A stretch of 64,000 nucleotides of DNA, from the NCBI RefSeq assembly GCF_900112205.1, contig NZ_FOKW01000001.1, positions 310,001-374,000 of the forward strand. Direction: 5' to 3'. Of the stretch, positions 37,382 to 39,011 are shown piece after piece. Source of the DNA: Natronobacterium haloterrestre (GTDB taxonomy: Archaea; Halobacteriota; Halobacteria; Halobacteriales; Natrialbaceae). The notes below the pieces were generated by a model that saw nothing but the letters and a program-made list of their open reading frames with translations, was not told the origin of the DNA and made no database searches. Both the position numbers and the translations under genes were made by a program. The number at the start of each line of letters is the position of its first letter. The stretch's first letter is position 1.

Positions 37382-38671
37382 TTACCCGATGATTTCGGGT
37401 ACCTCCTCGAGGGACACGTACCGGGTCGTCCCGTCGCGGGCCTCGAGTTCGACCTCGCCGGTCTCCCGGTAGTGGTTCCCGAGGATCGCTTTCTCGGGGA
37501 TTCCGAGCAGGTCGCTCTCGGCGAACCGCTCGCCGATCGTCCGCTCGGGGTCGTCGAACAGGAGCGTCTCGGCCGTCCCGCAGCGCTCGTGGAGGCGATC
37601 GGCCGCCTCGCGCAGGTCCGCGTCGCCGTATTCGAGGGGGATCACGGCGAGGCGATAGGGTGCGATTTCGGGAGAGGCGACGTCCCCGTCCTCGAGCGCC
37701 GTGGACGAGTCGGGCCAGCGACAGCCGTTCTCGTCGGCGTACTGCTCGAGGAGGGCGTGCAGGAGCCGTTCGACGCCGATGCCGTAGCTCCCCATGAGGA
37801 CGTGGCGCTGCCCGCCGCCGGCGGTGTCGATCGTCAGTCCCATGGGTTCGGCGTAACGCCTGCCGAGCTGGAAGACGTGGCCGACTTCGATCCCCTCGCC
37901 GGCCGCGAGCCGGCCGCCGCACTCGGGGCAGTCGTCGCCGGCCGCGAGGTCGGCGCGGGGCGACTCGTCGGTCACGCCGAACCGACAGTCCGTCGCGGTA
38001 CAGCGCCGGACAGCGACCGTCCCCGAGCCGGTTTCGGTCATTGCGACGAACTCCTCGGAGTTCGTCCCGCCCATGACGCCGTCGTCCGCCGCCGCGACGA
38101 CGAACTCGAGACCGAGCGACTCGAAGATACGGACGTAGGTCTCCCGGACCCGGTCGTAGCACTCCCGGAGGGAGTCGTCGGTCGCGTGGAAGCTGTAGGC
38201 GTCTTTCATCGTGAACTCCTTCGTCCGCAGGAGGCCGTTGCGGGCGTGGTCGTCGCGGTGTTTCCGCTCGATCTGGTACACCAGCAGGGGCAGGTCGTCG
38301 TAGGAACGGACGACGCCGTCGACGAGGTGGACCGCGCCCTCCTCGTGGGAGGGAGCCAGACAGAGGCGCTTGCCGTCGCGGTTCTCGAGCGTGAACATCT
38401 CGCCCTCGAAGCTCTCCCAGCGACCGCTTCGCTGCCAGATGCCGGCGTCGTTCAGCGAGGGGAGGCTGATCCGTCGGCCGCCTGCGGCGTCCATCTCGCG
38501 CTCGAGCAGGGCGACGAGGTTCTCCCGGACGCGCTGGCCGGTGGGCGTGAAGCCGTAGCGCCCGCTGCCGAACTGTCGGACGAGGCCGGCCCGTGCCGTG
38601 AGCGCGACGGTCTCGTTTTCGTGGCCGTTGGTCTCCCGGCTGGTGAAAAGCAGGGACTGGCTACGCCGCAC
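37382..38671 (-). CDS. Bacterial-type prolyl-tRNA synthetase lacking the INS domain
   Basis: The protein (429 residues from the GTG at 38671, MRRSQSLLF) carries the class II ProRS features of the bacterial type. They are motif 1 around GRYGFTPTGQRVRENLVALL, motif 2 in YQIERKHRDDHARNGLLRTKEF with MKDAYSFH, and MGGTNSEEF. The CPECGG ... GIEVGHVFQLGRRYAEPMG segment and motif 3 GSYGIGVERL follow, then an anticodon-binding domain (RLAVIPLEYGD). The editing INS domain, normally about 180 residues between motifs 2 and 3, is missing, as in alphaproteobacterial enzymes. Archaea use a different ProRS type, so this is probably an acquired extra copy. A GTG three codons earlier is an alternative start. 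Confidence 0.85.
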   Translation of the reverse strand: MRRSQSLLFTSRETNGHENETVALTARAGLVRQFGSGRYGFTPTGQRVRENLVALLEREMDAAGGRRISLPSLNDAGIWQRSGRWESFEGEMFTLENRDGKRLCLAPSHEEGAVHLVDGVVRSYDDLPLLVYQIERKHRDDHARNGLLRTKEFTMKDAYSFHATDDSLRECYDRVRETYVRIFESLGLEFVVAAADDGVMGGTNSEEFVAMTETGSGTVAVRRCTATDCRFGVTDESPRADLAAGDDCPECGGRLAAGEGIEVGHVFQLGRRYAEPMGLTIDTAGGGQRHVLMGSYGIGVERLLHALLEQYADENGCRWPDSSTALEDGDVASPEIAPYRLAVIPLEYGDADLREAADRLHERCGTAETLLFDDPERTIGERFAESDLLGIPEKAILGNHYRETGEVELEARDGTTRYVSLEEVPEIIG

Positions 38672-39011
38672 TGCGATCACCCCCGTCGACGCGGCCGTCG
38701 GCGTCGAACCTTCCGTGTCCAGTCTCCTTGCGAGCGTGACGATCCGCGTCTACACCACCGTCGCCGTAACGTCGGCTACGACCCGTCACGGACAGCGTAC
38801 GAACGACGCGAAGAGAAGCAGTACGACTCTCGGTACTATCGCGGAACCCAGCCGCGGGCCACACCGGACCCGCGGTTGCCAGGTCGCGTTCGTCGGAACA
38901 TGCGACCGAAACGTCGGCGACCTAATATAAGTAAATGTTGAAGACTGTCGCCGAGGACAGATTTCTCGAAACTACAATAAGTGAAAAAACACGTCTTTGT
39001 TCGATACACGG
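38672..39011. other. 340-nt intergenic region without a recognisable gene
   Basis: It separates the divergent ProRS-like gene and the small membrane protein gene. The left two thirds hold G/C-rich sequence with no protein-like frame. The right end is AT-rich (AATATAAGTAAATG near 38932 and ACAATAAGTGAAAAAAC at 38974-38990). The second AT-rich stretch lies about 27 nt before the ATG at 39012 and is the likely promoter. Confidence 0.55.

Follow-up and report, generated by a model that had tools for sequence, protein, structure and literature searches.

Why a haloarchaeon should carry a prolyl-tRNA synthetase (ProRS) of the bacterial type, and what this enzyme does in the cell, are the questions raised by a gene of Natronobacterium haloterrestre that we named proS2. 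It lies in the stretch of 64,000 nucleotides analysed here (the window):

37382..38671, minus strand: proS2, auxiliary INS-less P-type ProRS of 429 aa, with 14 Pro codons, none of them CCG or CCA

The open reading frame is complete, running from a GTG at 38671 to a stop codon that ends at 37382, as had been predicted. An alternative frame of 432 aa starts at 38680, but this start would fall within the Shine-Dalgarno (SD) sequence, whereas the GTG at 38671 sits after an extended SD, so the longer frame is disfavoured. Profile searches showed that the protein passes the curated cut-off of TIGR00409 for bacterial-type ProRS (349 against 306.7 bits) and stays far below that of TIGR00408 for the archaeal/E-type (83 against 437 bits), in agreement with the bacterial subtype assigned by the original prediction. 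It scored below the cut-offs of both NF006625 (P-type with INS; 383.9 against 558 bits) and NF008979 (the INS-less alphaproteobacterial kind; 322 against 550 bits). Pfam found both the catalytic core and the anticodon domain. Between GGxxxEF and IEVG, nearly all members of the haloarchaeal family have a gap of 40-54 residues (one has 70), most bacterial enzymes with INS have 190-196, and the INS-less alphaproteobacterial ones have 68. This indicates that the INS domain of about 180 aa is absent from the window's enzyme, as the first reading of the gene had it. The AF2 model (pLDDT 84, pTM 0.85) had P-type ProRS as its best PDB matches, and its comparison with 2i4n, the INS-less ProRS of R. palustris, gave TM 0.80/0.78.

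In a ProRS tree, all 43 haloarchaeal rows formed one branch (100/100), and the INS-less alphaproteobacterial ProRS joined the proteobacterial INS-bearing enzymes (95/97) apart from the haloarchaeal clade; the bacterial sampling of this tree is thin (20 rows), its branches are long, and mitochondrial rows were left out. The kinship with alphaproteobacterial INS-less forms suggested by the original prediction is thus contradicted. The haloarchaeal enzymes resemble the R. palustris protein (2i4l) in having a P-type fold without the full INS (TM about 0.8), but they are not sisters of the alphaproteobacterial enzymes, which have the longer gap given above and keep the RPR motif. Because the INS-less enzymes form separate clades, the lack of INS in the haloarchaeal one is probably independent, whether the domain was lost or had never been there. 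The tree and the profiles support an acquisition of proS2 from outside the archaeal-type ProRS lineage, so that the idea of a transferred enzyme stands. Haloarchaea have likewise gained a bacterial-type LeuRS (PMC3436685), from which the ProRS differs in being mostly auxiliary and in carrying a leader.

The motif-2 loop, RPR in the sampled bacteria, reads H[A/P]R and is one residue shorter in 40 of the 43 haloarchaeal members. P-type ProRS cannot read the acceptor stem without the first Arg of RPR (PMC12152171), and the change fits an adaptation to C72 of archaeal tRNA-Pro. Motif 2 itself reads RDD instead of RDE in the family. The TxE motif (APSHEE) has become SxE in 40 of 43 members, comprising all 35 that bear the leader described below and 5 leaderless ones, and is kept as TxE in the sole-copy enzymes and in L056. 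A cysteine quartet (C-x4-C ... C-x2-C), possibly a metal knuckle, is present in 39 of 43 members, in the window protein at about residues 226-253, where INS would sit. In Haladaptatus halobius (L054), the auxiliary gene seems to be out of frame near its N-terminus, perhaps marking a decaying copy.

The bacterial-type gene was found in 36 of 391 genomes and 16 of 86 genera of a sample of the class Halobacteria, with one gene per carrier genome (the match in G345 is split), and in none outside Halobacteria in a 393-genome sample of the phylum, which overlaps the class sample. The enzyme had been predicted to be an extra one, and a search of the window's genome for a second, archaeal-type proS did find a single copy at C15:625845-627323, 277 kb from proS2. 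An archaeal ProRS is also present in 33 of the 35 other carriers. It is missing from only 3 of 382 class genomes, namely G339, an 88%-complete assembly, and the two Halodesulfurarchaeum genomes G001 and G007, both 99% complete, in which the bacterial-type enzyme is the sole ProRS. The tRNA-Pro(UGG) of G007 is of the ordinary archaeal kind (G1:C72, A73), and so are the two host tRNA-Pro found in the window's genome. Since Halodesulfurarchaeum has no ProRS other than a member of the haloarchaeal P-type clade, this clade probably charges archaeal tRNA-Pro. Housekeeping capacity is thereby shown for the members of G001 and G007 themselves, and we infer it for the window's own enzyme.

No neighbouring gene is conserved across genera at proS2, so the adjacent GNAT gene pointed out earlier has no role. 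No viral carriage of the bacterial-type ProRS gene was found in IMG/VR, and plasmid matches were all below 60% identity, those listed being bacterial ProRS. Elsewhere in the window's genome, 13 tRNA genes of varied specificity lie within about 6 kb (G000:C17:13.5-19.5 kb; locus L106, 1582-7506), including its second tRNA-Pro(UGG); this array resembles the tRNA clusters of viruses or plasmids.

Most of the functional information lies in two features absent from the original prediction, a leader upstream of proS2 and a purge of Pro codons within it. The elements of the window's leader region are as follows:

38922..38931, minus strand: TATA-like box, about 25-30 nt upstream of the ATG of the upstream open reading frame (uORF)
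38836..38901, minus strand: leader uORF encoding MFRRTRPGNRGSGVARGWVPR*, an in-frame ATG- or GTG-started frame in 35/35 leaders
38852..38875, minus strand: 9-bp hairpin CCGCGGGUC[CGGUGU]GGCCCGCGG inside the uORF, 97.3% of cells paired, with covariation
38842..38847, minus strand: invariant GTTCCG, the Val-Pro codons, identical in 35/35 leaders
38815..38821, minus strand: CTGCTTC, a putative pyrimidine-rich element just 3' of the uORF
38675..38684, minus strand: extended Shine-Dalgarno GGGGGTGATC preceding the GTG start

The leader is conserved in 33 of the 36 carriers, being absent from both Halodesulfurarchaeum genomes and from G117. Strong matches to its covariance model (E <1e-6) were limited to these 33 carriers and two further genomes, G180 (L236, around 7918) and G003 (L237, around 11449), where an intact leader stands before what is left of a decayed auxiliary proS. 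Across leaders the uORF is 18-28 codons long, and its frame starts with ATG in 33/35, compared with an ATG-started ORF in 2/35 for each of the other frames. An AT-rich box lies at a similar distance upstream in most leaders; the spacing of the TATA-like box suggests a leaderless start, so that the uORF probably sits at the very 5' end of the transcript. For the hairpin, three pairs have changed on both sides, the covariation score of 0.285 (0.189 in shuffled alignments) was reached by 0 of 500 shuffles, and slid controls were only 31-45% paired. The residues of the uORF peptide vary (Gly/Glu, Arg/His/Pro) where the variation preserves the hairpin pairs.

GTTCCG stands at a constant distance from the hairpin in 35/35 leaders, the block from hairpin to CCG being gapless. 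Elsewhere in these genes GTT makes up about 7% of Val codons and CCG 3% of Pro codons. Every uORF (35/35) has CCG at the control site, and the remaining 8 Pro codons of the uORFs are CCC or CCT, with a single CCA; we propose the CCG of GTTCCG as the candidate sensor codon. By raw count, 31 of the 35 leaders have a putative CTGnTTY or TTCT element between +17 and +33 relative to GTTCCG. An SD precedes 32 of 35 leader-bearing genes and 1 of 8 leaderless ones, as expected for a second cistron; in Haloferax volcanii, SD motifs in 5'-UTRs are unnecessary, and a role in re-initiation within operons has been discussed (PMC3986360). Near the gene, no Rfam cis-regulatory RNA, T-box included, matched above the gathering threshold, and a T-box-like reading of the leader was rejected, such a structure being neither conserved nor matched in Rfam. 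A stem sequestering the SD (upstream of the SD paired with the first codons) was likewise rejected (mean 5.77, against 5.68 for mismatched partners; 85/300 as high).

The 458 Pro codons of the leader-bearing genes comprise 411 CCC, 27 CCT, 14 CCG and 6 CCA. CCG and CCA together thus account for 20/458 (4.4%), compared with 62% of 4182 Pro codons in flanking genes, where CCG makes up 54% and CCC 35%. Their share is at most 8% in 30 of 35 leader-bearing genes, 26 of which have none, and in 0 of 183 flanking genes, these being the ones with at least 10 Pro codons, chosen by length and acidic composition and not by annotation. The Jensen-Shannon shift in codon usage was 0.312 for Pro, 0.044 for Ser and at most 0.007 for all others. 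The Ser codons of leader-bearing genes move from TCG (0.40 to 0.21) to AGC (0.25 to 0.44). Most leaderless copies show no such purge: in aggregate, CCG and CCA reach 55% in leaderless auxiliary copies and 56% in sole copies; CCG alone reaches 37% and 51% in these two groups and 38% in the archaeal ProRS of the window's genome. Exceptions occur on both sides: L049, L131 and L142 have a leader and keep 3-5 CCG/CCA codons, and the leaderless L040 is nearly clean, with one CCA among 12 Pro codons. The established theory of selective charging, which has support in E. coli, holds that charge is lost to different degrees among isoacceptors and that the codons used for control are of the sensitive kind; the pattern of leader and gene is what this theory predicts for attenuators (PMC1183508).

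Taking these results together, we favour, as a fairly probable reading, that proS2 is an auxiliary, inducible P-type ProRS adapted to archaeal tRNA-Pro and switched by ribosome stalling at the leader CCG. With slightly less assurance, we lean towards regarding the locus as a conserved attenuation-type sensor of archaea, in which a uORF with one control codon (CCG) would read the charging of Pro isoacceptors and turn on a codon-purged backup synthetase. The sequence shows the enzyme identity, the second ProRS, the uORF, the hairpin, the fixed hairpin-to-CCG spacing, the codon purge and the SD, and from these the following course may be drawn. The transcript would begin at or near the short uORF. 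When Pro-tRNA reading CCG/CCA is short, the archaeal ProRS being inhibited or starved, the ribosome would stall once the invariant CCG occupies its A site; given the size of a ribosome footprint, it would cover roughly the hairpin's 3' arm, which lies immediately upstream, so that the hairpin stays open and the main gene is expressed. The proS2 mRNA, with almost only CCC and CCU for proline, would still be translatable with tRNA-Pro(GGG). With ample Pro-tRNA, the ribosome would run through, the hairpin would form as the off state and expression would be low. The output step may be early termination, mRNA decay or control of translation. In nature, the system may respond to a compound that inhibits the archaeal ProRS, or simply to stress in proline supply or tRNA charging. 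One option for the effect of the hairpin would be archaeal termination with FttA, which acts at U-rich sites and which a coupled ribosome may keep out (PMC8116511). No clear terminator was found in the leader region, nor any downstream pairing partner for the 5' arm, the loop or the GUUCCG block, and that of the 3' arm was marginal (5/60).

At the sequence level, all leaders have what an attenuator calls for, an ORF that contains a codon for the enzyme's own amino acid (frame 35/35, CCG 35/35). Each leader has only one control codon, whereas bacterial attenuators usually carry several, and GTT is as invariant as CCG; both points speak against the stalling model, and the latter makes an arrest of the nascent peptide at Val-Pro possible. 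The nascent RGSGxARGWVP would then sense a small molecule, such as an antibiotic targeting the ribosome or ProRS, and arrest would switch on proS2 for resistance, whatever the charging state of Pro-tRNA. The fixed Val-Pro (35/35) and an A-x-G-x-V-P frame common to both leader groups are in keeping with this, but the residues upstream shift so as to keep the hairpin paired (G/E, R/H/P), Trp is replaced by Arg or His, and the avoidance of CCG/CCA in proS2 is left unexplained; we consider such a switch unlikely. We give still less credence to the leader acting as a protein- or tRNA-binding RNA with an incidental uORF, for instance a mimic of the tRNA-Pro anticodon arm (CGCGG-CUGGGUU-CCGCG) by which ProRS regulates itself. 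The window's sequence can indeed form a 5-bp arm and a 7-nt loop with GGG at the anticodon position, yet in the alignment this arm is paired in 86% of cells with no two-sided changes, GGG is lost in Halobacterium-type leaders, and a binding RNA would account neither for the frame conserved in 35/35 leaders nor for the codon purge.

Other alternatives concern the enzyme itself. The original prediction had allowed for charging of a special tRNA or action outside translation, and the SxE and RDD changes could be taken as signs of such a function, as a ProRSx-like or non-translational adenylating enzyme. However, the catalytic and anticodon domains are complete, and an RDD-bearing member is the sole ProRS in Halodesulfurarchaeum, which makes this idea improbable. 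Inhibitor resistance, the remaining suggestion of the original prediction, may be a role of the enzyme. The haloarchaeal enzyme resembles Streptomyces ProRSx in being an extra P-type ProRS, but ProRSx has its own tRNA-ProA (PMC9437257), and a partial search recognised no tRNA with an altered anticodon of this kind among those listed for the window's genome, a possibly incomplete list from which tRNA-Pro(CGG) is absent. There is very little likelihood that proS2 is an ordinary redundant transferred synthetase whose leader and codon bias stem from mobile origin or drift: patchy presence and decayed copies would suit this, but the strong deviation concerns Pro codons only, the others matching the host, and the leader has been kept across many genera with covariation.

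Induction by stalling at the leader CCG, the reading we prefer, has parallels among the auxiliary, leader-controlled synthetases known in bacteria. Vecchione and Sello (2010, cited in PMC4787780) reportedly described that Streptomyces trpRS1, an auxiliary indolmycin-resistant TrpRS, is under ribosome-mediated attenuation. Both systems have an auxiliary synthetase beside a housekeeping one and a leader uORF with codons for the same amino acid, Trp in the Streptomyces case; proS2 differs in belonging to an archaeon and to proline, in its single CCG, in the hairpin inside the uORF, in the strong codon purge of the structural gene and in having no identified terminator. Control analogous to that of trpRS1 would be the best explanation of the proS2 leader. 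According to a paper of 2021 on transcription in archaea (PMC8448881), these organisms have no known mechanism of attenuation or antitermination, and we found no archaeal counter-example among the hits listed in searches of open-licence papers.

The conserved leader at haloarchaeal proS2 and the accompanying codon purge are new here. As a candidate for attenuation in archaea, the locus is concrete, conserved widely and easy to test. Leaderless relatives, decayed copies and a genus in which the enzyme has become the one ProRS serve as built-in controls, and the codon purge offers a strong natural illustration, from outside bacteria, of selective charging.
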